From positions 1 through 44,692 of the forward strand of contig JAOTXT010000034.1 in assembly GCA_029862205.1 (NCBI GenBank): 44,692 bases of DNA. Direction: 5' to 3'. How positions within the stretch are numbered: the first letter of the stretch is position 1; every line of letters starts with the position of its first letter. Below the pieces are notes generated by a model, which saw only the letters and a program-made list of their open reading frames with translations, did not search any database and was not told the DNA's origin. This document shows positions 10,101-28,000 of the stretch, piece after piece. Origin of the DNA: Paracoccaceae bacterium. GTDB taxonomy: Bacteria; Pseudomonadota; Alphaproteobacteria; Rhodobacterales; Rhodobacteraceae. The position numbers were made by a program, and so were the translations under genes.

Positions 10101-10256
10101 TTCAGCAATCATCTAACGGCGCCGCGCAGATTGATTGACAAAGGTGTCCAGCCCCGAGCGGTCGGCAGGCCTTCATAGGCTCGATAATGCTTCATGCGGC
10201 AAGACCGGTACCTGGTTCGCCGTAACTCCGGGCGGACAAGGTCAACGCTGCGCCTA

Positions 10257-10270
10257 TTGATACGCATCAA
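10257..10270 (+). promoter_or_regulatory. FNR/FixK-type operator with class II promoter spacing
   Basis: TTGAT-ACGC-ATCAA is a perfect palindromic match to the FNR/FixK consensus. A possible -10 (TAACAT, 10292-10297) puts the transcription start near 10304, about 41 bases from the box centre, the class II activator geometry. The leader to the GTG start of the ACP-ligase-acyltransferase gene would be about 60 bases. Confidence 0.65.
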
Positions 10271-10364
10271 AGCGTATATCCGGTGCACACATAACATTGT
10301 TCATTGGAAAGAGCTCACGAGCCCACGATGGTTCCGCCCAAACCATCAAGTGAAGCGGTCGCCG

Positions 10365-13196
10365 GTGAACAAATCAAATGCCAAGATTCGCGAAGACCTC
10401 TCGGGGCAGCTTCTCGATATCATCAAAGACCTTGCGATTGAGGTGCGTCCCCACCTGCGTCGCGGCCTTGAGGTCGAACTCGACAGCGATCTGGACGCCG
10501 ACATCGGCCTCGACAGCCTTACCCGCGCCGAGTTGCTTCTGCGTCTCGATCGGGCCTTCAAGGTCCGTCTGCCCGACAGATTGATTGCCGACGCGGCAAC
10601 ACCCCGCGATCTTCTCGAAGCGGTTGCGGCCGCCGCACCCCAGGATGCGTTGGATCGCTATCGCCGCGCAAAGAGGAAAGCTCCTCTTGTGAAAGTTGCG
10701 GTGCCCGAAAAGGCGGCCACGCTTCCCGAGGTTCTCGCAGCGCATATTAAGAACAATCCAGAGCGTCCACACATATGGCTTTGGCGGAGCGACGAAGAGG
10801 AGGAACGTATCACCTATGCGGACCTGGACAGGGCCGCCCGGACCGTCGCAGGAGGATTGCTCGAACGGGGACTTCAGCCCGGTGATCGGGTTGCGATTAT
10901 GCTACCCACCGAATCCGGCTTCTTCGAGGCGTTCTTTGGCGTCATCCTGGCGGGAGGAGTGCCGGTTCCGATCTATCCGCCATTCAGGCCTTCCCAAATC
11001 GAGGAGCATCTGAGAAGGCAGGCCGGAATCCTACGCAACGCGCAGGCAAGCGTTCTTGTCACCGACGCCGAGATTCACCGGGTGGGCGTCTTGCTATCCT
11101 CCCTTACCGACAGCCTGTGCGGCGTCGAAATGATCGGCGAGCTGAGGAAATCCACTCCGATTTCTGCTCCCATCGAAGCGCATGGCGATGCAACGGCGCT
11201 CATTCAGTATACTTCCGGCAGCACCGGCGATCCGAAAGGTGTCGTTCTGGACCATGCGAATTTGTTGGCGAACATCCGCGCGATGGGCACAGCAATGGAA
11301 GCCAGTTCATCCGACGTCTTCGTGAGCTGGCTACCTCTCTATCATGACATGGGGCTGATCGGCGCCTGGCTCGGCTGCCTCTATTATGGCGCACCAACAG
11401 CCATCATGCCGCCGCTCGGCTTTCTTGCCGACCCGGCGCGGTGGCTTTGGTCGATTCACCGCCACAGAGCGACGCTTTCCGTTGCGCCTAATTTCGCCTT
11501 TGAACTGTGCCTGAAGAACGTCCGCGACGATGACATCAAGAACCTCGATTTGAGTTCGCTGCGCATGCTGGTCAACGGTGCCGAGCCGGTAAGTCCTTCT
11601 ACGATTGACCGCTTCGCAAGTAGATTTGGAGAATACGGTTTTCGGCCGGAGGTGATGGCGCCGGTCTACGGGCTGGCCGAGAGCTCAGTCGGCTTGGCCT
11701 TTCCACCCGTCGGCCGGCCGCCGATCGTCGACCGCGTGGAGAGAGAGGCCATTTCCCGTGAAGGTGTCGCAAGGCCGGCAAAAGAGAAGGACAAAGCCTC
11801 GGTTGAATTCGTTGCCTGCGGCCGGCCCTTGCCAGGCCACCAGATCCGGATCATTGACCAGTCGGGCCGGGAGCTGCCCGAACGGCGGGAGGGAAGGCTC
11901 CAGTTCAAGGGGCCGTCGGCAACAAAGGGCTACTTCCGCGACGAAGAAAAAACCCGTGCACTTTTTGACGGCGAATGGCTTGAAAGTGGCGATCTGGGAT
12001 ACATCGCCGGCGGCGACGTGTTCATCACCGGCCGGACCAAGGACGTCATCATTCGTGCCGGCAGGAACATCTATCCGCATGAACTTGAGGAGTTCGTCGG
12101 CAACATGGAAGGGGTGCGCAAGGGATGCGTGGCAGCATTTGCAAGCAGCGATCCCGATATGGGAACCGAGCGCCTCATCATCCTGGCGGAGACCCGGATA
12201 AAGGATCTTGAACATCTGGACGCGTTGCGGGCTCGAATTTCAGCTGCTGCCACAGAGCTGCTCGAACTGCCGCCAGACGAGGTTGTGCTGGTCCCGCCAA
12301 GAACGGTTCCGAAGACCTCAAGTGGCAAGATCCGGCGCTCTCAGTCGCGCTTCCTGTTTGAAAGTGGTCTTATCGGTAAACGACCCCGCGCCCTTTGGTG
12401 GCAGATCACCCGCCTCACCGTGAATGGCGTATTGCACCGCTTCCGGCGAGGCATGCAAAATCTTGCGGAACTCGCCTATGCGGTATGGTGGTGGTTTTCG
12501 CTTTGCCTTGTGGCCTCTTTAGCTTGGCCGCTGGTGATCCTCCTGCCGCGACGTGCATGGCGCCACGCTGTGGTCAGCAGGCTTGCAAAGGTGTTTTTCC
12601 GCCTGGCAGCGCTTCCGGTCGCTGTGCAAAGAGAAACCAAGATCCCGACGGAACGCGTCATACTGGTGGTTAACCACGCCAGTTATCTGGATGGCGCAGT
12701 CATTTCGGCGGCGGTGCCGGGCCAGCTTTCCTTCGTGGCGAAGGAGGAACTGGCGCGGCAGTTCGTTGCGGGTAATTTCCTTCGGCGGCTTGGAACCATC
12801 TTTGTCAGCCGCACCGATGTCGGCATTGGTTTGGAAGACACGGCGCGACTGGAAGAAACCACAAGGGCCGGGGAGCGGACCGTGTTTTTCCCGGAAGGCA
12901 CCCTGACCCGAATGCCCGGCCTTCTGGAATTTCATATCGGTGCCTTTCTGGTGGCGGCGAGGACCGGTACACCGGTTCTGCCCGTTGCGATCCGGGGAAC
13001 GCGATCTGTATTGCGCGGCGAGCAATGGTTTCCAAGACACGGACGGATTTCGGTGCATAGCGGAAAGCTGCACCTGCCCGACGGTGATGATTTCGAGGCG
13101 GCCTTGCGCTTGCGCGATCGGGTCCGGCGGTCGATCCTCGAATACAGCGGCGAACCAGATCTCGCGCATGAGAAAGTCACCCTGACGCAGACCTGA
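10365..13196 (+). CDS. Fused acyl carrier protein - fatty acyl-AMP ligase - PlsC acyltransferase
   Basis: A 943-residue three-domain protein. Residues 10-85 are an acyl carrier domain whose phosphopantetheine serine is Ser51 in GLDSLTRAE. Residues 120-670 are an acyl-AMP ligase of the FAAL type, with YTSGSTGDPKGVVL near 280, WLPLYHDMGLIG, and TVPKTSSGKIRRSQ near the end. After one or two membrane segments (about 705-730) comes a PlsC domain with NHASYLDG near 769 and FFPEGTLTR near 840. It could activate a fatty acid, hold it on its own ACP and transfer it to a lysophospholipid at the membrane. The frame is open back to 10194, but that segment contains the promoter, so GTG 10365 (or GTG 10350) is preferred. 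E. coli Aas has the domains in the opposite order and no ACP. Confidence 0.9.
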   Translation: MNKSNAKIREDLSGQLLDIIKDLAIEVRPHLRRGLEVELDSDLDADIGLDSLTRAELLLRLDRAFKVRLPDRLIADAATPRDLLEAVAAAAPQDALDRYRRAKRKAPLVKVAVPEKAATLPEVLAAHIKNNPERPHIWLWRSDEEEERITYADLDRAARTVAGGLLERGLQPGDRVAIMLPTESGFFEAFFGVILAGGVPVPIYPPFRPSQIEEHLRRQAGILRNAQASVLVTDAEIHRVGVLLSSLTDSLCGVEMIGELRKSTPISAPIEAHGDATALIQYTSGSTGDPKGVVLDHANLLANIRAMGTAMEASSSDVFVSWLPLYHDMGLIGAWLGCLYYGAPTAIMPPLGFLADPARWLWSIHRHRATLSVAPNFAFELCLKNVRDDDIKNLDLSSLRMLVNGAEPVSPSTIDRFASRFGEYGFRPEVMAPVYGLAESSVGLAFPPVGRPPIVDRVEREAISREGVARPAKEKDKASVEFVACGRPLPGHQIRIIDQSGRELPERREGRLQFKGPSATKGYFRDEEKTRALFDGEWLESGDLGYIAGGDVFITGRTKDVIIRAGRNIYPHELEEFVGNMEGVRKGCVAAFASSDPDMGTERLIILAETRIKDLEHLDALRARISAAATELLELPPDEVVLVPPRTVPKTSSGKIRRSQSRFLFESGLIGKRPRALWWQITRLTVNGVLHRFRRGMQNLAELAYAVWWWFSLCLVASLAWPLVILLPRRAWRHAVVSRLAKVFFRLAALPVAVQRETKIPTERVILVVNHASYLDGAVISAAVPGQLSFVAKEELARQFVAGNFLRRLGTIFVSRTDVGIGLEDTARLEETTRAGERTVFFPEGTLTRMPGLLEFHIGAFLVAARTGTPVLPVAIRGTRSVLRGEQWFPRHGRISVHSGKLHLPDGDDFEAALRLRDRVRRSILEYSGEPDLAHEKVTLTQT

Positions 13197-14184
13197 CGGG
13201 GGCAAAACCTGCCGGCATGTGTCAAAAAGGCAAGGCTCAGACAGCTGCACAATCAAATCGGGCGGGCAATTGCAGCGCCCGCGAGGGGGTGTCCGAGAAA
13301 GCAATGCAGGGGTGGATATCCAGAACCGGCAAATTCTTGGCGGTCCCTGATCGTTGTATGGGCCATCATTTGTCTAAAATGGCACTATCCGGACGCTCTG
13401 GCACGATCCTGGCAATGTCCGCTTACCGTCGAAGTGCCGTCGATCGCCAAGCGCCCCGGCTAGCGAAAATAGACAGCGGAGATTTCGATACCGGGGGGTC
13501 ACAGTTTCTAGTTCTGTTTTGGGCGAGGAGCACCCCGCGAAGGTGCGCGAAGGTTGAAAAATCTTCGGAGAAGAGAAAATTGATCTGAATTTGAAACGAA
13601 CCCCGTTCTGAAGGGTTGTTTGCATGATCGGCGCCCAAAGATGGGGCGATGGTTGCGATAGGGGGTTTTGCAATGCGTGGACGGATCGCCGATTGGCACG
13701 ATCACCGTGTATTGATCACAGCGCCAGCGGATGCGCAATTTGTGACGGTGAAAGTCATCCTAATAGTCTTGTTCGGCACTCTAGGTGTAATCGGCGTCCA
13801 GATTTAAAGCCGTCGACCGCAGAGAGCCCCGACGGGCCAATTTAGACAGAACAGACCGCGATCTAGAGGTTCTGGGTGGTTGACCTATCAGGAGCACGAT
13901 GGCGCTCTGTGACTGTTTAGATCGCGCTCAACGACCCCAGGGATCCCAGGAAGCCGAATTCTCAAGCCGGCGGGGCGATGCGGTCATGGATGAGGCTAGA
14001 TCCGATCTCTGGCCAATACCAGACATGCGCACCGCGTAAGGTAAGGGTCCGTTTCTGACCCAAAGCCGACATAATTTCCGTTAGCGTATTTCACCGAGGC
14101 TGGGCCTCTCAGTGCTGTCCAAATCGTCGCGGCGAAGCCAAAGAATACCTCGTTTCACGACCTGTTGGTTGCCCACATGGCTTC
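13197..14184. other. Long intergenic region, mostly without genes
   Basis: Nearly 1 kb with frames of poor coding quality on both strands. A short candidate ORF at 13673-13807 is listed separately. A 9-base inverted repeat (CGCGATCTA near 13858 with TAGATCGCG near 13917) flanks about 50 bases. I see no transposase fragment or structured RNA that I can name. Confidence 0.5.
13673..13807 (+). CDS. Candidate 44-residue protein with one membrane segment
   Basis: ATG at 13673 follows GGGGG by seven bases. The product has a polar N-terminus (MRGRIADWHDHR) and one hydrophobic segment at residues 23-44 (VTVKVILIVLFGTLGVIGVQI). The N-terminus faintly resembles the start of cold-shock-domain/DUF1294 proteins (GRIxDWxDxRGFGFI), so it could instead be a decayed fragment. 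Coding status is unproven. Confidence 0.3.
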   Translation: MRGRIADWHDHRVLITAPADAQFVTVKVILIVLFGTLGVIGVQI

Positions 14185-14198
14185 TTGATTGGGGTCAA
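14185..14198 (+). promoter_or_regulatory. FNR/FixK-type operator of the GTPase gene
   Basis: TTGAT-TGGG-GTCAA is a perfect TTGAY-N4-RTCAA match. A good -10 (TATATT, 14219-14224) predicts a transcription start near 14231, about 40 bases from the box centre, matching class II FNR activation. The leader to the GTPase start would be about 85 bases. Confidence 0.7.
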
Positions 14199-14316
14199 TA
14201 TATAAGTCTGAACGGCATTATATTATTTTAATATGGGCGAAATTCGAAATCCGAACGTAGTAAGCGCTATCCGCCTTGGCGCTGTTCTGGCGCGGCGCGA
14301 GTGATAACGTCTGGCG

Positions 14317-15681
14317 GTGGCGCGGATGACCAGCACTAATGGGCGCAGACGAATCGTGATCATGGGCGCGGCGGGCCGCGACTTTCACGATTTCAACACC
14401 CTCTACCGCGATGACCCGGCAATCGAGGTGGTCGCCTTCACCGCGGCCCAGATACCCGGCATCGCGGGCCGACGGTATCCGCCCTCGCTGGCGGGACCGC
14501 TCTACCCGGAGGGTATCCCGATCGAGGACGAGGCGTGCCTGGCCGAAATATGCCGGGCGCACAACATTGAACAGGTCGTCTTCGCCTATAGCGACGTAAG
14601 CTACGAGCATGTGATGCACCTGGCCTCGGAGGCCATCGCCGCCGAAGCCGACTTCGTTCTGCCGGGGGCTGGGGCGACCATGCTTCAGGCCGCAGTTCCG
14701 GTGATCGCCATCTGCGCGGTCCGCACCGGGTGCGGCAAGTCACAGACGGCTCGGCACTTGTCACGGCATCTGCGTGCGCGTGGCCGCACGGTCGCGATCC
14801 TGCGCCACCCGATGCCCTATGGGGTGCTCGAGCGCCAGGCGGTTCAACGCTTCGCCACGCTGGACGATCTTGCCGCGGCCGACTGCACCGTCGAGGAGCG
14901 CGAGGAATACGAGCCGCATATCGCGGCCGGGAACGTCGTTTTCGCCGGCATCGACTATGCCAGGATCGCCGAAGCGGCCGCGACGGAGGCGGATATCATC
15001 CTTTGGGACGGCGGCAACAACGATCTGCCGTTCCTGCGGCCTGATCTGATGATCGTGCTGGTCGATCCGCTGCGCCCGGGTCACGAAGCCACACACCACC
15101 CGGGCGAGGCGGCGCTGCGCGTGGCGGACGCCATCTTGATTGCCAAGTGCAATGCCGCCGCCAGCGCCGATATCGCCCGCACGGCGGAAGGTGCGAGGGC
15201 AGTCAACCCTGCCGCGCCGGTCATCCGTGGCGCCTCGGTGGTGACGCTCGACAACCCCTCGGTGGTTGCGGGCAAACGGGTGCTGGTGGTCGAGGACGGT
15301 CCGACACTGACCCATGGCGGAATGGCCTATGGCGCGGGATATGTCGCCGCCACCGAGGCCGGAGCGGTTGGGTTCGCAGACCCGCGCACGAGCGAAGTGG
15401 CCGAGACCGCCCGGGTTTTCGAACTTTATCCGCATATCGGCCCCGTCTTGCCCGCGGTCGGCTACAGTCCGGCGCAGCTGAAGGCACTGGAGATGACCAT
15501 AGACGGGGTGGACGCCGATGCCGTTGTCATCGCGACACCCTGCGACCTAGCGGCGCTGATCGACATTCGCAAACCGGTGGTCCGGGCGCGCTACGAGTAC
15601 GAGGCGTTGGGAGAGCCCTCGCTGACCGGTCTCGTTGACGGATTTCTTGCACGTCTGGCGGCTGGTCAGGCCGGGTCCTGA
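14317..15681 (+). CDS. COG2403-like GTPase, cyclic-2,3-diphosphoglycerate-synthetase-like
   Basis: A 454-residue cytosolic protein. The N-terminal half has a dinucleotide-like strand-loop IVIMGAAGRDFHDFNTLYR (residues 13-31), and the centre has a P-loop variant CAVRTGCGKSQTARHL with GKS at 140-142 and a Walker B-like ILWDGGNNDLPF. This is the layout of the predicted GTPase group related to archaeal cyclic 2,3-diphosphoglycerate synthetase; in bacteria its reaction is unknown. GTG 14317 or ATG 14326 may start it; neither has a strong ribosome site. It is driven by an FNR-type promoter and its last 16 bases overlap the convergent carbamate kinase gene, so the two ends are tightly packed. Confidence 0.8.
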   Translation: MARMTSTNGRRRIVIMGAAGRDFHDFNTLYRDDPAIEVVAFTAAQIPGIAGRRYPPSLAGPLYPEGIPIEDEACLAEICRAHNIEQVVFAYSDVSYEHVMHLASEAIAAEADFVLPGAGATMLQAAVPVIAICAVRTGCGKSQTARHLSRHLRARGRTVAILRHPMPYGVLERQAVQRFATLDDLAAADCTVEEREEYEPHIAAGNVVFAGIDYARIAEAAATEADIILWDGGNNDLPFLRPDLMIVLVDPLRPGHEATHHPGEAALRVADAILIAKCNAAASADIARTAEGARAVNPAAPVIRGASVVTLDNPSVVAGKRVLVVEDGPTLTHGGMAYGAGYVAATEAGAVGFADPRTSEVAETARVFELYPHIGPVLPAVGYSPAQLKALEMTIDGVDADAVVIATPCDLAALIDIRKPVVRARYEYEALGEPSLTGLVDGFLARLAAGQAGS

Positions 15682-16583
15682 GAAATCATCGTTCCTGCCT
15701 CGCCGCGCAGGATGGTGGGAGCGTCAGCCAACGCACCAATCGCGGCAATACGTCCGCCCGCCAGGGTGAACCGGCAGGCGGCCTCGGCCTTAGGCCCCAT
15801 CGAGCCATCGGGCAGATCCAGCGTGACGGCTTCTTCCGGGGCCATCCGCCGTATTGGCGCTTCGTCTGGACCACCCCAGTCGCGGTAAACCGCATCAACA
15901 TCGGTCAACAGAAGCAATGCATCCGCGCCCAGCTCGGCCGCGAGCAAGGCGCTTGCACGGTCCTTGTCGATGACTGCCTCGACGCCCTGCAGCGCGCCGT
16001 CTGGCCGCTCGGCAACGGGAATGCCGCCCCCGCCGGTGCAAATGACAACCACACCGCGCTCGACCAGTATCCGCAGCACGCCGATATCGGGGATACGTTT
16101 CGGTTCGGGCGACGCCACGACACGGCGCCAATGATCGCCGTCCTGCGCGATGCTCCATCCAAGCGCGGCACCCAGGGCTCGCGCCTCGTCCTCTCCATAG
16201 AGGGGGCCGATGAACTTCTTTGGGCGTGTGAAGGCCGGATCGTCCGGGTCGACCTCGACCTGCGTGAGCAACGTCGCGACAGGAACCGAATGACCAAGCG
16301 CGTTTTCCAGTTCCTGCTCGATCAGGTAGCCGATCATCCCTTCTGTTTCGGCGCCGAGAACGTCCAGAGGATAGACGCCGCCTGTTGCCGTCCGGTCCTG
16401 CTGCAGCGCCAGGAGCCCGATCTGCGGTCCGTTGCCATGGGTTACGATCAGGCGATGCCCAGCACGGACAATCCCGGCGAGCGCCGTGGCCGCTTCGCGC
16501 ACGTTCGCGCGCTGAGCGGCCGCTGTCATCGGGCTGCCGCGCCGCAAGAGCGCGTTGCCGCCAAGGGCCGCGACGACGAGCAT
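15666..16583 (-). CDS. arcC: Carbamate kinase
   Basis: Catalyses reversible phosphoryl transfer between carbamoyl phosphate and ADP, giving ATP, ammonia and CO2. Family motifs are complete: VVAALGGNALL at the N-terminus, VTHGNGPQIG, ATLLTQVEVD, CTGGGGIPV, AVIDKDRASALLA, LLLLTDVDAVY and DGSMGPKAEAAC. The ATG at 16583 gives the usual family start and length (305 residues); the frame continues seven codons to a TTG at 16604. It is the last gene of a five-gene minus-strand unit, 136 bases after gcvPB, and its 3' end overlaps that of the GTPase gene. No ornithine carbamoyltransferase or arginine deiminase is nearby, so the carbamoyl phosphate source is unclear. Confidence 0.95.
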   Translation of the reverse strand: MLVVAALGGNALLRRGSPMTAAAQRANVREAATALAGIVRAGHRLIVTHGNGPQIGLLALQQDRTATGGVYPLDVLGAETEGMIGYLIEQELENALGHSVPVATLLTQVEVDPDDPAFTRPKKFIGPLYGEDEARALGAALGWSIAQDGDHWRRVVASPEPKRIPDIGVLRILVERGVVVICTGGGGIPVAERPDGALQGVEAVIDKDRASALLAAELGADALLLLTDVDAVYRDWGGPDEAPIRRMAPEEAVTLDLPDGSMGPKAEAACRFTLAGGRIAAIGALADAPTILRGEAGTMISQDPA

Positions 16584-16719
16584 TCCTTGGTCAATTTCCT
16601 GCAAGACTCAGCCTTTCGGGCCGCCGGTCCGCCAGAAGCAATCGGCACCTCTGGATGCGGCCACCCCGTTCTTGAAGCCGGGCGGCGCACCTGGGAGAGG
16701 CGGGCGATATCTTCTCGAT

Positions 16720-18213
16720 CTAGCCAATTTCCCCATCGCTGCCGCGCGCGGCGCGGTCGGTGACGATACGCTCGCGCGCAGCCTTGACTTCGTCGAGACG
16801 GGAAACGGGTGTCGCATGGGGCGCTTCACGCAGCTTTTCGGGCGCATCTCTCGCCTCTGCCGCGATCTGCAGCATCGCCTCGGCAAAGGCATCGAGCGTT
16901 TCCTTCGTTTCGGTCTCGGTCGGCTCGATCATCAAGGCTTCGCGCACGATCAGCGGAAAATAGTTGGTGGGCGGATGAAACCCGAAGTCCATCAGCCGCT
17001 TGCTGATATCGATGGCGCGGGCGCTGGAGCCTTCAGGGCGCCCTTCGCTGACGAATTCATGCATACAGAGCCGATCAAAGGGAACCGGATACTCGGACTT
17101 CAGGCGACCGCGGAGGTAGTTGGCGTTGAGCACCGCGTCGGCCGCGTTCGTGCGGAGACCCGCCGCGCCGAGCGCACGAATATAAGCGAAAGCGCGCACC
17201 AGCATCCCGAAATTGCCGTGGAAGGCGGTCATGCGGCCGATCGAGCGCTCCGGCCTCGCGAAGCGGTAGCGCGGGTCAGCGGCCGGATCATGCTCGACGA
17301 CCGGACCGGGCAGATATTCAGCCAGCCTAGCGCCCGCGCCGAGAGGGCCTGAGCCAGGCCCGCCACCACCATGCGGGGTCGCAAACGTCTTGTGAAGATT
17401 GAAGTGCATCACGTCGATGCCCAACTCTCCGGGCCTGACGACCGCCGTCAGCGCGTTCATGTTAGCGCCGTCGCCATAGACGAAGCCACCGGCGGCGTGG
17501 ACGAGTTCGACGATATCCCCGATCCGCTCCTCGAACAGGCCAAGCGTATTGGGATTGGTCAGCATGATCCCGGCAAGCCGGTCGTCGCAGGCAGCGCGGA
17601 CAGCGTCGATGTCAACATTGCCGCGCGCGTCCGAGGGGATTTCGACGGCGAGGAATCCAGCCATTCTTGCCGAAGCCGGGTTGGTCCCATGCGCCGTGTC
17701 CGGGACAAGGATCCGGTCCCGGTGCGCTTGACCGCGATCCGCATGGCAGGCACGGATCATCAGGAGCGCGGTCAACTCTCCCTGTGCTCCGGCGACGGGC
17801 TGGAGGGAGGCAGCAGCAAATCCGCCGATCTCTTTCAACGCTTCCTGAAGCCCGTGCATGATCTCAAGCGCGCCCTGAACCGTCGCCGCGTCCTGAAGCG
17901 GGTGGATCGAGGCGAAGCCCGGCAGCCGGGCAAGCTGTTCATTGATCTTGGGGTTGTGCTTCATCGTGCACGACCCGAGCGGATAAAAGCCGCTATCGAC
18001 GCCGAAATTCATCTGTGACAGGCGGAGGTAATGCCGCACGATCTGTGACTCGGAAAGCTCCGGCAGCCCGTTATCGGCTCTGAGCTGGGCGTCTGGCAGG
18101 GGCGCATCCGGCACGTCCGCTTTGGGCAGGGTGATCGCCCGGCGGCCCGCCACGCTCTGCTCGTAGAGCGTCCGTTCGAGCGGCTCCGTGTGCTTTGGTG
18201 ACGTATTGGTCAC
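16720..18213 (-). CDS. gcvPB: Glycine dehydrogenase (decarboxylating) subunit 2
   Basis: The PLP-carrying half of two-subunit glycine dehydrogenase (P-protein), which decarboxylates glycine and loads the aminomethyl group on lipoyl-GcvH. The PLP lysine is about residue 274 in NLHKTFATPHGGGGPGSGP, and the N-terminus has the family's SQMNFGVDSGFYPLGSCTMK. Length (497) is normal. The GTG start overlaps the gcvPA stop by four bases (GTGA), so subunits 1 and 2 are co-translated. The C-terminal tail (RETAPHATPVSRLDEVKA-like region, last 40 residues) is typical. No gcvT or gcvH is in the window, so the H-protein partner must be encoded elsewhere. Confidence 0.96.
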   Translation of the reverse strand: MTNTSPKHTEPLERTLYEQSVAGRRAITLPKADVPDAPLPDAQLRADNGLPELSESQIVRHYLRLSQMNFGVDSGFYPLGSCTMKHNPKINEQLARLPGFASIHPLQDAATVQGALEIMHGLQEALKEIGGFAAASLQPVAGAQGELTALLMIRACHADRGQAHRDRILVPDTAHGTNPASARMAGFLAVEIPSDARGNVDIDAVRAACDDRLAGIMLTNPNTLGLFEERIGDIVELVHAAGGFVYGDGANMNALTAVVRPGELGIDVMHFNLHKTFATPHGGGGPGSGPLGAGARLAEYLPGPVVEHDPAADPRYRFARPERSIGRMTAFHGNFGMLVRAFAYIRALGAAGLRTNAADAVLNANYLRGRLKSEYPVPFDRLCMHEFVSEGRPEGSSARAIDISKRLMDFGFHPPTNYFPLIVREALMIEPTETETKETLDAFAEAMLQIAAEARDAPEKLREAPHATPVSRLDEVKAARERIVTDRAARGSDGEIG

Positions 18214-19625
18214 GAGACCACTCCTGCGAGGGCATGGACCAGATTGTCGATCTCTGCCCGTGTATTGAGCTCGGTCACCGCGAGCAGCATCTGGTTCTCG
18301 TGGCCAGGGAATGACCCTCCAAGGTCATAACCGCCGATAATTTCATGATCCTCGAGCAGGATGGCGTTCACGTCCCTCGCGGGCCGCGTGAGTTCGATGA
18401 CAAACTCCTTGAAGAAATCACGGCCCTGCGCGTTTGCGTTCACCTTCACCTTGGGAATGGCCGAAATCTGCTTGGCTGCGTAATGGCTCTTGTTGAAGCA
18501 GAGCTCCGCCACCTCCCGCAAACCCGGCTTTCCCAGCGTTGCCAGATACACTGCGGCGGCCAGGGCACCGAGGGCCGAGTTGGTGCAGATGTTGCTGGTC
18601 GCCCGCTCGCGGCGGATATGCTGCTCGCGGGTTGCCAGTGTGAGCACATAGCCGCGCCGTCCCTCGGTGTCGGCGGTCTCGCCAACGACACGGCCGACGA
18701 GACGGCGGATATGCTCGCGCCGGGTCGCAAAGATGCCGAGCGACGGGCCTCCGAAATTGGGCGGCAGGCCCAACGGCTGGCCATCGGCGACCACCACATC
18801 GGCGCCATAGGCACCCGGTGGTTGGAAGAGGCCAAGAGCAATTGGATCGGAGACGACGATCAGCAGCGCCCCAAGCCCGTGCACGACCTGCGCGAGCCCG
18901 TCGATTTGTTCCGAGAGGCCGAAGAAGTTCGGATTCTGGACCACAACGGCCGCAGTGCTGGAATCGACGAATGGCAGGAGCCCGGAAGCGGCGATCGCCG
19001 GATCGTCGGGAACTAGAATCTCCGCATTGGTTCCCTGGAGGTAGGTTGTGGCAACTTCGCGGTAGTGGGGATGGACCGCAGGGGACATGACAATCCGGTC
19101 GCGTGCATCCCCGGTTGCGTCGAGGGCCAGCAGAATAGCCTCGGCGAGTGACGTCGCTCCGTCGTAATGGCTGGCGTTGCTGACCTCCATTCCGGTCAGT
19201 TGGCAGATCATGCTCTGATACTCGAACATCGCTTGCAGCATCCCCTGGCTCAGTTCGGGCTGATAGGGGGTATAGGCGGTGTAAAACTCGCCCCGCTGCA
19301 GCACATAGTCGACGGTCGCCGGAATGAAGTGGCGGTAGCTGCCGGCGCCCAGAAAACAGGGCCGGTCCTCGATGGGAGTGTTGCGTCGGGCCTGCCCCCG
19401 TAGTTCGCGGGCAAGATCAGCCTCGGCCAACGGTTCCGGCAGGTCGAGGGACGGGAAACGCAGGGGCTTGGGCACGTCGGCGAAAAGCTGCTCGGCCGAA
19501 GCGATACCGATTGTGCGGATCATTTCCGCATGCTCGGTTTCGGAATGTCGGGACTCAATCATTCCGCGATTGACCATGGTGGAAACATCCACGTCGGCAG
19601 CGGTCCGGGCCTTGACGTGCGTCAA
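18210..19625 (-). CDS. gcvPA: Glycine dehydrogenase (decarboxylating) subunit 1
   Basis: The non-PLP half of the two-subunit P-protein; with GcvPB it forms the active heterotetramer. Recognisable blocks are CFLGAGSYRHFIPATVDYVL, FYTAYTPYQPELSQGMLQAM, TGMEVSNASHYDGATSLAEA and, near the C-terminus, GGYDLGGSFPGHENQMLLAVTE. The TTG at 19625 overlaps the NAD-kinase-like stop (TTGA); an ATG at codon 17 or 22 is also possible and would match the family start (HSETEHAEMIRTIG) better. Length 450-471 is normal. It is followed by gcvPB with a four-base overlap. Confidence 0.95.
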   Translation of the reverse strand: MTHVKARTAADVDVSTMVNRGMIESRHSETEHAEMIRTIGIASAEQLFADVPKPLRFPSLDLPEPLAEADLARELRGQARRNTPIEDRPCFLGAGSYRHFIPATVDYVLQRGEFYTAYTPYQPELSQGMLQAMFEYQSMICQLTGMEVSNASHYDGATSLAEAILLALDATGDARDRIVMSPAVHPHYREVATTYLQGTNAEILVPDDPAIAASGLLPFVDSSTAAVVVQNPNFFGLSEQIDGLAQVVHGLGALLIVVSDPIALGLFQPPGAYGADVVVADGQPLGLPPNFGGPSLGIFATRREHIRRLVGRVVGETADTEGRRGYVLTLATREQHIRRERATSNICTNSALGALAAAVYLATLGKPGLREVAELCFNKSHYAAKQISAIPKVKVNANAQGRDFFKEFVIELTRPARDVNAILLEDHEIIGGYDLGGSFPGHENQMLLAVTELNTRAEIDNLVHALAGVVS

Positions 19626-20767
19626 CCGACGGGAACCATCCGCCGCAAGTGATAGCCGATGACAACGGAAAGGTAGCCGTTCCGACCGAGCTCCCGGTCG
19701 AGAGCAGCGTCCCCGGTGTCGAAGTGAAGCACTGGCGTCCGCTGCAGCTTCGCCGGAGTCGCCACGACAACAATATTTCCCGTGCCAATCCTGCGGATGA
19801 CCTCGGGACTCAGCTGAAGGTTCCCACGGCCCAGAACAAATCCCTGAGCGCCAATCGGGCTGAGGACGAGCACCGCGTTCTTCTTGTCGCCGAGCAGCCT
19901 GAGGATGGCGCGCTCATTCAGATCCCGCTCCACCAATCGACCGTTCAAGAACGCGTCGATCCCCAGCAGCGTCTTCTCGACGCCAACATGTTCTGCGACT
20001 GACTGTACGGTCGTTCCGGGGCCGAACAGGAAAACCGTGTCCCGACAAGCGCTGATCTGGTCGCGGAGATCATCAGCGATTTCTGCTTTCGCCTGGGCTT
20101 CGCTGGCCTCGACGGCGAAGGCCTTCGCGGTTTGCGTCAAGGTTGGCTCGAAGGGCGTCAGCGCCGAACCGACGGGTCGGATGACCCACTCGCCACAGCG
20201 GTAGCGCTCCTCATCGAGATCCAGGAGATCGGCCTCCGCCGCCTGAACCCGGCCTTCCAGAAATGCAAAGACAACCTTTGCTACGCGCTCAGGCGTGATG
20301 CCGAATACTCCCGAATACATTTTCACGCCGGACGGTATGCCAAGGATCGGGACAGTTTTCGCGGTCGCGGTCGCGATGTCGCGCGCCGTCCCATCACCAC
20401 CGCAAAAGAGGATCAGGTCAACCCCGGCCTCAAGAAAGCTCTGCACGGCCTGAACGGTGTCGTCGACGGTGGTGGGTGACGACGCTTGGTGGACAATCTC
20501 GATACTCTCGAAACTGGTGATCCGCAGCGCGTCACCACCCATCGCGCCTGAACAGGTTACCCAATCGAGATCCCGCTCCATCCGGCGCCCCGAAATCAGT
20601 GCCTTTAACGGTTTCAGCGACGCCAGCGCACGGTCCGCGGCAATCGGCGTTGCCCCCAACCTCACGGCCTCATCGGCGAGCCCATCAGTCCCCTTGAGGC
20701 CGATCTTTCCGCCCATGCCGGCGACTGGATTTATCAAAAAGCCAATCTTCACAATGGTTGCAGACAA
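19622..20767 (-). CDS. ATP-NAD kinase family protein (COG3199-like)
   Basis: A 381-residue cytosolic kinase-fold protein. The N-terminal IGFLINPVAGMGGKIGLKGTDG and GGDGTARD at residues 123-130 are hallmarks of the NAD/diacylglycerol kinase superfamily, and the long C-terminal part with LGIDAFLNGRLVERDLNE matches COG3199, distinct from housekeeping NAD kinase. The substrate may be NAD or another nucleotide-linked or acetoin-related molecule. Start is TTG 20767; no ATG is near. It sits between the SHMT-like gene (about 95 bases upstream) and gcvPA (four-base overlap), which suggests a link to the redox state of the glycine reaction. Confidence 0.85.
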   Translation of the reverse strand: MSATIVKIGFLINPVAGMGGKIGLKGTDGLADEAVRLGATPIAADRALASLKPLKALISGRRMERDLDWVTCSGAMGGDALRITSFESIEIVHQASSPTTVDDTVQAVQSFLEAGVDLILFCGGDGTARDIATATAKTVPILGIPSGVKMYSGVFGITPERVAKVVFAFLEGRVQAAEADLLDLDEERYRCGEWVIRPVGSALTPFEPTLTQTAKAFAVEASEAQAKAEIADDLRDQISACRDTVFLFGPGTTVQSVAEHVGVEKTLLGIDAFLNGRLVERDLNERAILRLLGDKKNAVLVLSPIGAQGFVLGRGNLQLSPEVIRRIGTGNIVVVATPAKLQRTPVLHFDTGDAALDRELGRNGYLSVVIGYHLRRMVPVG

Positions 20768-20863
20768 GCGCCTGTGGCCGTTTCGCGCATCGATTCAGAT
20801 CAATTCCAAGGTGCGAGGCAAGGTTTGCCTCAGTGCGTCCTTTGCCCCGCGGCCAGAAACAAT

Positions 20864-22210
20864 TCAGAAGCAATATTGCATCGAGGTGAACCGCTTACGA
20901 AAGCGTGTGACGTCCTCGCGCCATGCATCCTCGGCTCCATCCCCACCGCCAACGATTGCGGCCAGCAACGCGGCAAGTTCGCGAAAATCGTCCGGTCTCA
21001 TGCCGCATCGGGTCATCTCCTGAGTGCCCATCCGGACCCCGCTCGCGGCGGCGAAGCCGGGGTCGTCGTAGAAGGCCTGGGGGTTGGTGATGACGTTGTT
21101 GGCCTCCAGCCGTGTGGCGACCTCCTCGCCCTTACCCTTCGGTGTGCGCAGCAGAACCTGGTGGGTATCGGTATAATCATTCCCAGGATCGCCCTCGATC
21201 GTCAGCCCCTGATCAGCCAGCGCCCGGGCAAAGGCCTTGGCGTTGGCGATCACCTGCCCGGGATACTCGGAGCGGAAGCGCAGCATTTCGTAAGTTGCAC
21301 CAAGCAGCCCCAGCATAGTGCCCAAGTGATGGTTGCTTACATGGCCTGGGAAGGTGCGCCGCTCGATCAGATGCCAGAACGGATCGAAGGCGGAGCCCGG
21401 CGCGATGTTACTCAGAATGACCCCGCGCTGGGGTCCGAAAAAGGTTTTGTGCGTCGAGCCGGTGACGATGTCCGCTCCCTCCGCCAACGGAGACTGAAAC
21501 GCGGGACCGAGCAATCCCAGAACATGGGCTCCATCATACATGATCAGCGGGCGCCCAGGATTGTCGGCGCCGAATTCAGCGTGGACGAACTCCGCAATTT
21601 CGCGAACCGGCTCGGTTTCGATGATCACACTGCGGCCGAACACCAACAGTTCCGGCCGGGCGCGGAGAATTAGTTCCTTGGTTGCCGCAACATCGATCCG
21701 GTAGGGATTGTCCGCTTCTGCCGGGAAATGATCGGCAGCCGGACGGCCGGTCTCCGGGTCTGTCGCCAGGTAGTTCTTCAGCGCCCCCATCGGCTGGGCG
21801 CTCAGATGCCCGCCCCGGATCAGATCATGAACCAGAACGCGCGAGATCAGGCGCCGCTGGCCACCCGCCTTGCCGCTCCGGAATGCCTTGAACGCATCGT
21901 AGACCGTGTCGTTGGCCATCTGGCCACTGATGACCCGGGGCTCGATCCGGGTGCAGTCGAAGAACTTGCGCAACGCCTCCTTGAGCCGTTCCTCCACCTC
22001 CATGATGAAGCTGGTGCCCTTGTAGTAGCAAGTGGCGCCGATGTGCTCGTTGTAGCGTCCCGCGGGGTCGGCCGTGACGAGGGCGTCAATGTAGGCGGAG
22101 CACGGCTGCTCCGAGGGGATCAGATTAATGCATTCAGCACGGCGCCAACGGGAATTCGCTTGGGCTTCCCCTGCCAGCGCCGCGGCCAGAGTCTCCACGT
22201 CCTTTAACAA
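20864..22210 (-). CDS. Serine hydroxymethyltransferase-like PLP enzyme, divergent
   Basis: A 448-residue fold-type I PLP enzyme that heads the glycine unit. SHMT-like features are INLIPSEQPCSAYIDAL near residue 29 (compare LIASEN), DGAHVLGLL for PLP-binding Asp, and the PLP lysine near residue 254 in TGSTHKTFFGPQRGVIL. It departs from GlyA by replacing TTTHKTLRGPRGG and by lacking several folate-site residues, so the substrate may be another beta-hydroxy amino acid or a modified glycine acceptor. The start is TTG 22210 behind GGAGG (five-base spacer). It is directly downstream of a decayed cyclase fragment. Confidence 0.88.
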   Translation of the reverse strand: MLKDVETLAAALAGEAQANSRWRRAECINLIPSEQPCSAYIDALVTADPAGRYNEHIGATCYYKGTSFIMEVEERLKEALRKFFDCTRIEPRVISGQMANDTVYDAFKAFRSGKAGGQRRLISRVLVHDLIRGGHLSAQPMGALKNYLATDPETGRPAADHFPAEADNPYRIDVAATKELILRARPELLVFGRSVIIETEPVREIAEFVHAEFGADNPGRPLIMYDGAHVLGLLGPAFQSPLAEGADIVTGSTHKTFFGPQRGVILSNIAPGSAFDPFWHLIERRTFPGHVSNHHLGTMLGLLGATYEMLRFRSEYPGQVIANAKAFARALADQGLTIEGDPGNDYTDTHQVLLRTPKGKGEEVATRLEANNVITNPQAFYDDPGFAAASGVRMGTQEMTRCGMRPDDFRELAALLAAIVGGGDGAEDAWREDVTRFRKRFTSMQYCF

Positions 22211-22252
22211 TCGAACCTCCCTAGTCCCTTGCGGCCGCGTTTGTGCGGCGGC

Positions 22253-22437
22253 TCAGCAAATCCTGCTTGGGCCGGCAGAGACCACCGGCGAGCCATCGCC
22301 CATCATCTTGAAGATCCTACCGTCGTGTCTTGCCGTTTCAGGGTCAAACACTTCGGTCCGAAAATGCTTCAGCGCGGAAAGCGTGCCGCTACCTCCTCTT
22401 CCATGCGGACTGAATAAAGGCTAGCCAGCCGCCATAC
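22253..22437 (-). pseudogene. Remnant of a class III nucleotidyl cyclase
   Basis: Minus-strand translation gives YSVRMEEE and then, after a frame change near 22388, LSALKHFRTEVFDPE and GRIFKMMGDGS before a stop at 22253. These match the start of class III cyclase catalytic domains (GYSRLMxxDE-GTL-LKxxRxEVIDP-GRIVKTTGDG). Less than a third of the domain remains, with a shift, so it is not functional. It lies in the 5' region of the SHMT-like operon, whose promoter may have been set by this event. Confidence 0.7.
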
Positions 22438-22440
22438 GTC

Positions 22441-22893
22441 AGGAGCAACCAACAATGTTGGTGTCCGAAATCGCGGCTAGGCGGCGCTCCACTGGACGTC
22501 TCCCGTAGGAGAAAGATTGGCGGCATGGGCTGGTGGAATCAATCGCAGTCGCGCTGCAACGGAATGTCGGCCTCTGTCACAATCGAGACCTTCGACCGGC
22601 TGTGCCAAACGTCAATCATCGAGCGAACTACGGACACTCTGTGCATAAGGTCTCATTCGGCCCGCAGCCGCCGTTCACTCGCTCGATCAGATGACCCTCC
22701 ACTGTTCTGAAAGCGGCCATCCGTATCCGTTGCAGCAAATCCATGGCAGCGAAGGTCGAATCATTGGCACATTTCAGACCTGGATCAGGCGCAAGCTGAA
22801 TGCGTACTCATGACCCTAAGATGCCTTATGACCGCGTCCGGCTCGCAATGATCGTTCGCCTCCACCGTCTGTCATCCTAGCCAACTGAGTGAG
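22441..22893. other. Intergenic region with no supported gene
   Basis: No coding frame of good quality. Short phrases such as AATGTCGGCC (22562) and ATGACCC recur on the other side of the repeat-protein gene (23718, 23776), hinting at degenerate copies of one interspersed sequence. No riboswitch-like fold was recognised upstream of the glycine unit. Confidence 0.4.
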
Positions 22894-22923
22894 CGGCGTT
22901 GGTTGAGGAGGCTCAACGCCAAA

Positions 22924-22954
22924 CCGCCCAGCCATTCCCCAAATGGCTGGGCGG
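22924..22954 (-). terminator. Strong hairpin after the Pro/Glu repeat gene
   Basis: A perfect 13-base stem (CCGCCCAGCCATT with AATGGCTGGGCGG) and a five-base loop, about 70 bases past the stop of the leftward repeat-protein gene. Leftward it is followed by a short TTT tract, so a rho-independent terminator is plausible. Confidence 0.6.
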
Positions 22955-23024
22955 CATGTTAGAGCCTGATTACCGAAAGGTTTGCGCGCTCCCGTTGCGC
23001 ATCAGGACTCTCGCCTTTGGCGCG

Positions 23025-23429
23025 TCAGATCCAGATATCAAAAACGTCTGGTAGGTCCGCGGCAGGAATCTCCGGTAGATCGGCTTGAGCGGCCGCGGTT
23101 GCTTCCGGCAGGCTCAGCTCGGGGAACTCCGGCGCAGAGAACTCTGGCACTTCCGCGGGCGTGTCCGGACGGTCCGGTAACTCCGGCAGGTCCATCGAAG
23201 GCAGCTCCGGTGCGTGCTCTTCCGGAGTGTTGCTGGTGGCCGCCTCCGGCAGGCTTACCTCGGGGAACTGCTGTGCAGTTGGTTCCGGTAACTCCGTCGG
23301 CACTTCCGGACGATCCGGAAGACTAGGCAGTTCTTTCGATGGCAGTTCCGGTGCGTGTTCTTCCGGTACGTTGTTGGCAATTGCCTCTACTGCCTGGCTC
23401 GGCGGAGCGATGTTGGTTGGTCTGATCAT
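23025..23429 (-). CDS. Pro/Glu-rich tandem-repeat protein
   Basis: A 134-residue acidic, proline-rich protein with no predicted signal peptide or membrane segment. After a short N-terminus (MIRPTNIAPPSQAV) it contains two consecutive 47-residue units, each built of PEEHAPELPS, LPDRP and FPE[VL]SLPEA, then a partial third unit ending in DLPDVFDIWI. Composition predicts an extended or disordered chain with repeated short acidic-proline motifs, perhaps a binding or scaffolding surface. The frame is open 23 codons further, but ATG 23429 has GGGGGTGG upstream. A 24-base palindrome lies 53-76 bases upstream, and a strong hairpin follows the stop. I do not recognise the family. Confidence 0.7.
   Translation of the reverse strand: MIRPTNIAPPSQAVEAIANNVPEEHAPELPSKELPSLPDRPEVPTELPEPTAQQFPEVSLPEAATSNTPEEHAPELPSMDLPELPDRPDTPAEVPEFSAPEFPELSLPEATAAAQADLPEIPAADLPDVFDIWI
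23091..23372 (-). repeat. Two direct 141-base repeats inside the Pro/Glu protein gene
   Basis: Units at 23372-23232 and 23231-23091 encode 47 residues each, with the same PEEHAPELPS start and SLPEA end. Most differences keep the charge and proline pattern. Confidence 0.8.
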
Positions 23430-23481
23430 ATCCACCCCCTTATCTTGAATGCAAAAATTACCAAACGGCCCAGAACTGAAC

Positions 23482-23505
23482 AATCGCTTTTGATTCAAAA
23501 CGATT
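23482..23505 (-). promoter_or_regulatory. Near-perfect palindrome upstream of the Pro/Glu repeat gene
   Basis: AATCGCTTTTGA and TCAAAACGATT form an inverted repeat around one base, with one extra base in one arm. It lies 53-76 bases upstream of the ATG, where an operator would be expected. No -10 is clear, and the regulator is unknown. Confidence 0.45.
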
Positions 23506-24001
23506 TTTTCAACCTACAAGTGTATCGCTTTCAGCTGCCCAAATATTTACGACTCGCGCCCGCGCGCATCTCCATCGATGACCCAATCGGGTAAACTGCC
23601 GATCTGCTAAATCGCCCATCGGCAGAAGAACGCCGATGTCCGGAAGTGGCAAAACAGGACGTTCCGCGACGGCCGGGCGAAGGTCCGTTGATCGGCACAT
23701 AGTTGACGCTGGAGGCGAATGTCGGCCTTCCGGCGCATTTGAGGCCTAACCGGCAGCCGCCCTGGATGTCGCCCTATGACCCAAACCAGACGAAGCGTCG
23801 ATCGCCGGACATTGAGCGATAGGCACGAAATTATTCCTCACTCGCTAACCGGAACGGAAAGGTCTCGGCTGCTCTTGAAGTGATGAAACCATGTTGAACG
23901 TCGTCCGATCTGCCTCCAATTTTGAGACCTCACCAACGCCTGATGGCGGTTCTTATTTGGAGCCAAAGAACATTGCTAAGCTTCGAATTCCGCTAATCGA
24001 A
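23506..24001. other. Intergenic region with no supported gene
   Basis: Only short, compositionally odd frames (for example 23509-23700 minus). Phrases shared with 22.5-22.8 kb suggest degenerate interspersed sequence. Nothing else seen. Confidence 0.4.
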
Positions 24002-25017: not shown

Positions 25018-28000
25018 TCACGGCTTCACTGCCGTGCCGCCGCCATCTGCCTCCTCCAGGCGCTCTCGCAATCTCATGATGCGAGAGTCATAGAAGTGGA
25101 CGCTCTGGCCCGCGCTTGCCTCTTCGATCTCCTCCAGAGCAACGAGACCATCTCTAATGCGGCCAGAGGTTAGGCAAGCCTCCGCCAGCAACGCGTTCGC
25201 GTAAGGCACAATCTGGCGCGAGCCGGTCTTGACATACATCTCCAACCCGTCGCGCAGCCTGGCAATCCCGTGATCTGTCTTCCCGGTCATGGCAGTGGCC
25301 CAGCCGAGGAGAATCTGCGACCAGGCCTCCCAATAGGTGAAGTTGTCCCGGCGGCTTAGCTGACGCGCCCGACGCGCCAAATCGAGCGTTGCCTCGGCGT
25401 CGCCCCGCGCCTGGCACGCCGAAGCGAGAATTGACAATCCATACGCTCGCGTGAAGTCATGCTGTGCAGCTTCGGTCAGCTTAAGGGCGCGGTTTAGCGT
25501 CTTGTCGCTACGCTCCACGCAATCGACATTGATCAGCGCTCTTGCCCAGGCTTGCATGCATCGGCCGACTACTTCCGGATCGGCAACGTAATATTTTTGT
25601 AGCGCAGAGTCCGCGACGTTTGCGCGTCGATCGATCGCCCGCTCGAAGCACTTGATTGCCTCATCAAACAGGCCAAGGAAGAAGGACACCATTCCAAGGG
25701 CGTGATGCCCGAGGACGATAAACGTCTGGTCATTGTTGCTCTCGGCGATCTCGATCAATTTCAAAGCGTCTTTGCGTGCGAGTTCGATGTTGCCGCTTAT
25801 GATGTGCGTCCCGCAGAGACCGTGCAGGATCGTGAAAAGTCTTGCCGAGTCACCCAGACCGGCAACCAGATCGTGCAATCGGTTGAGGTTTTCGGCGATG
25901 TCGTCGGAACCCCAGCTACGTGCCTCCAAGGGAACGCATAGCATCTCGCGAAGGCGAATTTCCTTGCGATCACTAGCGGCACGATCTGTCTCGTGAGCCA
26001 GTTCCTGCAGCGCCGCCTCGATATGTGACACCGCCTCACTGTTGGCTGACCGCGCGATCGCCTTTTCCGCCGCCATTTCCCAATAGTACAGCGCCCGTTC
26101 ATGTTGATGCGCGCGCGTGAGGTGGCGGGCAGCAACCTCTGGGCGGCTTTCGATGATTTGCGGAAAGCGTTCCTCGATTGTCGCTGCGATGCGCGCATGT
26201 AGGTTGCGCATGCGGCTTTTCAGCACGCTCTCGTATGCGACGTCCTGCACTAGAGCATGCTTGAAGGTATAGGTTGCGTCAGGCGGCTCTCCGCGTTGGA
26301 AAAGGAGCTCGGCATCGACGAGTTGCCTCAGAGCCGGTGCCAAAACGGTGTCGTCAAGCCCTGTGACCGCCGCCAAGATCTGATGTGAGAAGCGCCTGCC
26401 AATCGCTGCGCCTACCGGCATCACCTTCTCGGCCAGCGGCAGGCGATCAAGCCGTGACATAAGAGAATCCTTAAGTGTCGACGGTAGCGCGAGGGGATCG
26501 GTGAGCGGGCTCCGACCTTGCGGCTCCGCCGCCGCCTCAATCGCCGCCTTGGTGAGTTCTTCGATGAATAGCGGCACACCGTCGGTCTTCGCGACAATGG
26601 CGTCTACCGCGGCGACGAGGTCATCCTTATTCTCGGTGAGCTGGCTCACGATCGTTGCCGACTCCTGTCGGCTTAAGCGGTTTACATCGAGCCGAGTGAC
26701 ATGCGCGAGCCCTGTCCAAGGCGGGGAATATTCGTGACGAAATGTGCAGACGAGCAAAATCCGCTTTCCAGCGAGCCGTTCGATGAACAGGTCCAATAGC
26801 TCTTGCGACGTCGGGTCGATCCAATGCAGATCCTCGAAGATGACGAGAAGGGGGTTGCTCACTGCCAACCTCAGCAATCGGTCGATCAGCGCTTTCATCA
26901 TCTCTTCCCGGCGGCGGCGATTGGCTGCGCCTGGGGCGAACTCCTGCTCGTCGTCGCCGACCGATAAGAGGCGGGCGAAGTGATACAGATTTTTCGAATC
27001 CTCCGGCGAGTTTGAAAGTAGCTCGGTGATCTTCTGCAGCTTTTCGTCTGGCGGGTCGTCCGAATTGATCCGTGCTGCATGTTCGAGATGTGCGACCACC
27101 GGGTATAGAGCGCTCTGCGTGTGGTGCGCCGAACATTGAAATTGCAAGCGCATCGAGGCTTCACTGCCCGCTTCACCGGCAAGTTCGCGTGCAAGGCGCG
27201 ACTTTCCGATCCCAGGTTCGCCCGAGAGCAGAACGACATTGCCTTTACCGCCGCACGCCTGCTCCCAACGGCGGCCGAGCAGATTGCGCTCCTCCTCTCG
27301 GTTCACGAACGGTGTCCAGCTACCGCGCTGATGCGCCTCAAAGCGCGAGACCGAACGCATGATTTCGCGCACTCTGAAAACCTGAAGTTTTTCTTTGAAC
27401 CCTTTGATATCTTGAGACCCTACGTCGTCACATACAAACTCGTTTCCCAACAAACGCCTGGTTGTCGAACTGATCAGGACCTGACCCGGCTCCGCGAGCG
27501 CTTGGAGCCTGGCAGCAAGATTCGGAATTTCCCCCATGGCGGATCGAACGGTCTCGACACCCTCGTACACCAAGCCATCGATCACGACCTGACCGGTAGC
27601 AATACCAACACGCGCGGCAAGGCTCCGCGGTAGCCCGGTCGGCGTCGCCGAGACCTCTTTGACCACGGCAAGACCAGCAACGACGGCCCGCTCCGGGTCA
27701 TCCTCTTGCGCGCGCGGGTAGCCGAAATAGGCCATCACACCGTCACCGGCGTATTGGGAAACGAAACCTCCATGGGCTGTGACCACGCGAGTGCAGGCGA
27801 CATGATAGCCACGGATCAGATCCTTGTAGGTCTCTAGATCAAGACGCTCGGAGAGTTCGGTTGATCCGACGAGGTCGATGAAGACGACTGTGATCTGGCG
27901 GAGCTGCACCGGTTCAGGAATTTCTTCAGAAGGATCTTTAAGTCGGTGCTCACTTGCTGCCTCTTCGTTCGCATCCTCCGGGGTCTCTGCGAGCGACGCA

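Follow-up and report, generated by a model that had tools for sequence, protein, structure and literature searches.

A cluster of six genes in an assembly of a Paracoccaceae bacterium (GCA_029862205.1, contig JAOTXT010000034.1, 44,692 nt, called the window below) raises the question of whether a P-loop protein of the COG2403 type, carbamate kinase, a split glycine decarboxylase, an NAD-kinase-like protein and an enzyme resembling serine hydroxymethyltransferase (SHMT) belong to one pathway. A first-pass annotation had proposed that they do, as a single glycine-carbamate module. Comparison with relatives instead splits the cluster, and its genes come close to being scattered among them, the outcome which that annotation had itself counted against its proposal. 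The cluster probably consists of two separately inherited modules lying side by side: an acquired glycine decarboxylase unit (module B) and an independent, widespread pair of COG2403-like gene and arcC (module A). The order, strands and coordinates of the six genes were confirmed as first annotated and are as follows, together with a putative regulatory site; PLP stands for pyridoxal phosphate.

14185-14198, plus strand: FNR/FixK-like palindrome TTGATTGGGGTCAA, one mismatch to TTGATNNNNATCAA
14317-15681, plus strand: COG2403-like protein gene, a P-loop enzyme with a predicted two-domain cyclic 2,3-diphosphoglycerate synthetase fold; module A
15666-16604, minus strand: arcC, carbamate kinase (NCBIfam); module A by neighbourhood, or possibly read with the minus-strand unit
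16720-18213, minus strand: gcvPB, glycine decarboxylase P-protein subunit 2 (NCBIfam; PLP lysine motif NLHKTF kept); module B
18210-19625, minus strand: gcvPA, glycine decarboxylase P-protein subunit 1 (NCBIfam); module B
19622-20767, minus strand: COG3199-type NAD-kinase-like gene (Pfam; GGDGTARD motif); module B
20864-22210, minus strand: SHMT-like PLP enzyme gene (Pfam), a type that follows GcvT in fusion proteins of genome G220 and Vescimonas; module B

Module A recurs in other organisms without its neighbours in the window. Relatives of the COG2403-like gene were confirmed in at least 586 stretches, and the 80 loci kept for neighbourhood counts (3 to 21 kb each, 52-68% identity) come from Thermococcus, other archaea, cyanobacteria, Chloroflexi and Proteobacteria. 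An arcC gene is present in 36 of the 80 and lies within 400 bp in 29, with 24 of these close pairs codirectional and 5 convergent like that of the window. In the same 80 loci gcvPA, gcvPB, gcvH, gcvT and the NAD-kinase-like gene were never found, and SHMT appeared as a single weak match (26%), a result that does not support the idea of one module. Among the immediate neighbours that were scanned (n = 137) the AA_kinase family is the commonest (28), aldehyde dehydrogenases follow with 7, and every other family occurs three times or less. Clustering placed genes like those for ornithine carbamoyltransferase (OTC) and genes like sucC in 8 loci each, the family names being our own reading of the sequences; single loci hold genes resembling those for ornithine racemase and for a basic amino acid antiporter (under the NCBIfam cut-offs in both cases), and in the haloarchaeon Salinirubellus the COG2403-arcC pair is surrounded by universal stress protein genes. 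Closer to the host, the COG2403 gene occurs in 1 of 4 genomes of the same genus, 0 of 32 others of the family and 1 of 24 others of the class. In the same-genus genome G002 its neighbour encodes a phosphoribosyltransferase/erythromycin-esterase-like fusion (L100:11917-14568).

Module B has a different set of companions. Relatives of the NAD-kinase-like protein (E <= 1e-30) were found in 9 of 385 genomes of the class, its own included; gcvPB adjoins the gene in seven of the eight other carriers, the eighth being cut by a contig end, and gcvPA is also present in all five where the contig reaches that far. No match to gcvT or gcvH was found within the 10 to 17 kb opened around these five complete triads. 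Thirteen plasmid records also match the NAD-kinase-like protein, and seven of the 11 regions opened carry the triad (those of Sphingomonas, Gemmobacter, Paracoccus, Antarctobacter, Roseicitreum and two of Rhodococcus), neither gcvT nor gcvH being seen next to it; those without it are from Natronosalvus, Natronorubrum (by annotation only), Aeromonas and Peptoclostridium. In a sample of the phylum the gene occurs in 38 of 398 genomes, its own included. As a general partner of gcv genes it was rejected: none of 29 such loci (L134-L162, from 29 of the 37 other genomes, the eight left out including G726 of the same family) has a gcvP match within about 1.5 kb on either side, so the COG3199 gene has other settings too.

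The closest relative of module B, in genome G123, reads SDR, Kbl-like, NAD-kinase-like, gcvPA, gcvPB, with a broken gcvPB frame, and the surrounding 17 kb that were opened showed no COG2403, arcC or SHMT-like gene; nor does the G123 genome contain an arcC at E <= 1e-20. Genes of the NAD-dependent epimerase and Kbl/BioF families stand there where the window has its SHMT-like gene. Kbl and a short-chain threonine dehydrogenase together would convert threonine to glycine, and SHMT would convert serine; the two arrangements would each feed glycine to the P-protein. A 1000-aa fusion of AMP-binding, phosphopantetheine and acyltransferase domains is encoded at 10194-13196 of the window, and a fusion of the same three domains lies beside the G123 triad (L118:891-3833).

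The first-pass gene names largely stand, the individual assignments being of unequal kinds. ArcC (TIGR00746, 369 bits against a cut-off of 358; best PDB match 8crv), GcvPB (NF003346, 699 against 441) and GcvPA (NF001696, 576 against 364) keep their names on NCBIfam models, while the other two minus-strand names are carried by Pfam only. The SHMT-like protein passes PF00464 (105 against 27) and scores 224 against the best NCBIfam SHMT cut-off of 335; the NAD-kinase-like protein passes PF01513 and PF20143, the N- and C-terminal NAD-kinase domains, has the GGDGT motif, falls far below the NCBIfam NAD kinase cut-off (22 bits against 316) and gave no close relative in a sequence search of the PDB. 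The numbers COG2403 and COG3199, taken over in part from the first-pass annotation, do not come from a search. Open frames run through all six genes, and those catalytic motifs that were inspected are intact. The gcvPB/gcvPA and gcvPA/NAD-kinase-like junctions are 4-bp overlaps, 96 bp separate the NAD-kinase-like and SHMT-like genes, and the 3' ends of the COG2403-like and arcC genes overlap by 16 bp.

The SHMT-like protein has its closest PDB matches in the SHMT structures 4bhd and 4uqv (E 1.2e-50), presumably from Methanocaldococcus. Aligned with the host's own glyA (L115) and two fused relatives, it keeps the THKT lysine, a YxE motif in the N-terminal region and the GVRMG arginine, for which we assume the roles of the E. 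coli SHMT residues; the host's second SHMT (L116) has no THKT string and was omitted. Its relatives (E <= 1e-80) occur in 2 of 385 class genomes, its own included. Two relatives, in G220 and Vescimonas, are fused to GcvT, the latter within a complete gcv operon, and a gcvT remnant was for this reason sought ahead of the window gene; none was found there. The fusions lie at L101:9379-12156 and L092:4696-7341, and the queries used gave no gcvH or gcvP match in 20 kb around that of G220.

As first annotated, gcvT and gcvH are missing from the cluster, and so, by Pfam and NCBIfam scans, are OTC and arginine deiminase (ADI). Queries for gcvT, gcvH and lpd gave nothing better than E 0.04 in the whole window, no genome-wide search having been made for lpd; OTC and ADI were absent from the 19 window proteins scanned with Pfam and from 14185-22210, again with no genome-wide search for OTC. 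No Rfam element, glycine riboswitch included, reached its gathering threshold in 13000-24000. The rest of the genome (4.44 Mb, 160 contigs) bears on what these absences mean. Contig C149 carries a gcvT-gcvH-gcvP run with the sole GcvH match of the genome and a fused gcvP of about 970 residues, which makes the window pair a second P-protein, and two further SHMT genes lie on contig C1. The overall reaction had been called unknown for want of gcvT and gcvH at the locus; with a gcvT-gcvH-gcvP set elsewhere, their absence here need not mean a new reaction. GcvT domains were found at 25 places in the genome, many of them in open frames of about 800 aa that suggest many paralogues of what we take to be the dimethylglycine/sarcosine dehydrogenase family. 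PF02274, the arginine deiminase family, was matched above the Pfam cut-off at eight partial places on contigs C156, C21, C49, C48 and C106 (frames of 273-356 aa), so that proteins of the amidinotransferase family, whether or not ADI is among them, exist in the genome.

A split GcvPB (E <= 1e-100) is found in 200 of the 385 class genomes, in none of 36 further genomes from its own family, among which four belong to its genus, and in 15 of 24 others of the class, which suggests that the window copy was acquired horizontally. The pair aligns nearly end to end with the Thermus thermophilus P-protein (382 bits for GcvPA and 499 for GcvPB). Measured against 17 canonical or fused rows, the window GcvPB keeps 138 of 156 near-invariant columns and differs at 18. 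The window GcvPA keeps 87 of 101 canonical near-invariant columns and differs at 14. In a tree of 30 GcvPB proteins the window and G123 triads are sisters (100/95) and fall with canonical and fused proteins, while the other 11 triads form a clade of their own on a branch of 2.1 (100/100); the place of one long fused row is unsure. Within that clade the canonical GcvPB residue is found in at most 2 of the 11 rows at 63 of the 156 columns, with the LHKTF lysine motif kept, and the canonical GcvPA residue is lost at 47 of 101. The diverged triads (L119, L120, L121, L124, L127-L130, L132, L133 and L163) are on plasmids in seven of 11 cases, and several stand beside SDR, APC permease, AMP-ligase, amine oxidase, DapA-family or ornithine-cyclodeaminase-family genes. 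Their product is perhaps a PLP enzyme that breaks down some compound other than glycine. Judged by sequence, the placement of the window pair and the columns it keeps fit an ordinary glycine decarboxylase.

Module B would then be a horizontally acquired second P-protein (GcvPA and GcvPB) accompanied by a COG3199 kinase and by a glycine-releasing PLP enzyme. The SHMT-like enzyme would make glycine from serine or allo-threonine, and the P-protein would decarboxylate it with the H and T proteins encoded on the other contig and the cell's dihydrolipoyl dehydrogenase, so that the unit as a whole may convert serine or threonine through glycine to CO2, NH3 and methylene-tetrahydrofolate.

The COG2403-like protein has no match in Pfam or NCBIfam, and it is conserved to an unusual degree, with 74 invariant columns across 55 orthologues from archaea and bacteria. 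It had been called a GTPase; its predicted model has an N-terminal domain and a P-loop kinase domain, as in cyclic 2,3-diphosphoglycerate synthetase, at 15% identity to that enzyme. A signalling GTPase is not favoured, since the model matches this two-domain ATP enzyme along its length while HypB, UreG, MeaB and the SRP GTPases match mainly in the P-loop domain. Its RTGCGKS segment aligns with GKRVGKT of 9sxb, to which we transferred the numbering of 8ORU by our own reading. In the Methanothermus fervidus synthetase (PDB 8ORK/8ORU), the published account has K145 and R146 of the P-loop binding 2,3-diphosphoglycerate (PMC10690619); opposite them stand T137 and G138, both invariant in the 55 orthologues. 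As these substrate-site residues differ, the function of the synthetase was rejected for the COG2403-like protein. In module A, carbamate kinase would work alongside this synthetase-like P-loop enzyme.

The module had further been described as anaerobically controlled from a class II FNR-type promoter. The box is indeed present and, by eye, well placed relative to a -10-like TATATT at 14219-14224 for a class II site, which is expected near -41.5; a sigma-70 scan did not select this promoter. FNR-like sites with up to two mismatches are common in the window (28 observed, 10.3 expected), and the two perfect ones are elsewhere, at 562 and 10257. Within 300 bp upstream, a box with at most one mismatch precedes 1 of the 80 COG2403 orthologues against 39 of 734 other genes of the same loci, and at two mismatches the counts are 15 of 80 and 155 of 734. 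The box is real as a string, yet it is not conserved among the orthologues and gives no conclusion on oxygen control.

Two features beyond the cluster may be recorded. A small predicted protein at 23025-23498 has imperfect proline/glutamate/leucine-rich repeats (PELPSKELPSLPDRPE-like), with no tandem array called in the DNA, and 25018-28164 encodes a protein with SAM domain, nucleotide cyclase, AAA and TPR regions that scores under the cut-off of the TOMM kinase/cyclase fusion model.

Several points weigh against two independent modules. Only 115 bp separate arcC from gcvPB, which precedes it in the same direction, and the two may be co-transcribed. In 44 of the 80 COG2403 loci there is no arcC in the DNA covered, and just five lack 1.2 kb downstream, so that contig ends account for few of these absences; in G002 the COG2403 gene (70%) has no arcC nearby, and an arcC of 46% identity is on another contig. 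Loss, too, could explain why the family has no split GcvPB. At G123 the SDR and Kbl-like proteins score under the cut-offs of the NCBIfam equivalog models, which makes the threonine reading there a guess, and the searches for lpd and OTC covered the window only. The position of arcC, its being single-copy in the host genome (E <= 1e-20) and the FNR-like box ahead of the COG2403 gene are what a single coupled pathway would draw upon, in which NH3 and CO2 from glycine give carbamate, ArcC interconverts this with carbamoyl phosphate and ATP, and the COG2403-like enzyme uses or makes the phosphorylated product at low oxygen. We consider it very improbable: the glycine decarboxylase genes never accompany COG2403 in the 80 loci, G123 lacks both COG2403 and arcC beside its triad and has no arcC in its genome, and the box is not conserved. 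Moreover, carbamate kinase works preferentially in the direction that makes ATP from carbamoyl phosphate, so that forming the latter from NH3 and CO2 costs ATP. Coupling of modules A and B is possible, without support.

Other readings concern the minus-strand unit itself. The recurrence of COG3199-gcvPA-gcvPB without T or H genes nearby, and the separate clade of 11 triads with its many lost canonical columns and retained lysine motif, might mean that the window pair too acts on something other than glycine, or does without a lipoyl-H protein, the COG3199 kinase replacing the GcvT/GcvH step as it maybe does in the diverged plasmid triads; the window pair lies outside that clade, with G123 on the canonical side of the 100/100 branch and most columns kept, and we regard this as unlikely. 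Less likely still, the unit was imported and is now decaying or silent, without present function: its patchy distribution in the class (SHMT-like and NAD-kinase-like relatives in two and nine of the 385 genomes) would suit such a history, but six open frames and the intact catalytic motifs among those inspected speak against it. A somewhat better case, put forward tentatively, can be made that P-proteins have in the COG3199 kinases a functional partner not recognised so far, the triad without adjacent T and H genes occurring in two far-apart P-protein lineages and also on plasmids; the diverged lineage would then be a new PLP enzyme for a non-glycine substrate, and in the window lineage a second glycine decarboxylase would be modulated or supplied by it. 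For the locus as a whole we continue to prefer two adjoining modules of separate inheritance.

None of the open-access titles listed in literature searches concerned this gene set. The comparison is with systems that share parts of it. With the split-P glycine cleavage system (GcvT, GcvH, GcvPA, GcvPB and Lpd) the window shares P-subunits above their cut-offs, the PLP lysine motif and most near-invariant columns; it differs in having no adjacent gcvT, gcvH or lpd, in having a COG3199 kinase and an SHMT-like gene, and in lying in a genome where gcvT, gcvH and a fused gcvP are present already. The gcv operon of Vescimonas fastidiosa contains gcvPA and gcvPB together with an SHMT-like half 50% identical to the window protein, but there this half is fused to GcvT, gcvH and lpd are alongside, and no match to the COG3199-like gene, arcC or COG2403 was found in 13 kb. 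From the M. fervidus synthetase the COG2403-like protein is set apart by T137/G138 in place of K145/R146 and by its low identity. Removing the tempting but unsupported glycine-carbamate pathway leaves two questions: what keeps a COG3199 kinase in the company of P-proteins that lack neighbouring T and H genes, and which role an extremely conserved COG2403 enzyme has next to carbamate kinase. Another known system that is close in part is the arginine deiminase pathway (ArcA, ArcB and ArcC), with which the window shares an ArcC above its cut-off; its arcC stands without ADI or OTC beside it, unlike that of an arginine deiminase operon, while in some relatives OTC-like genes do accompany COG2403.

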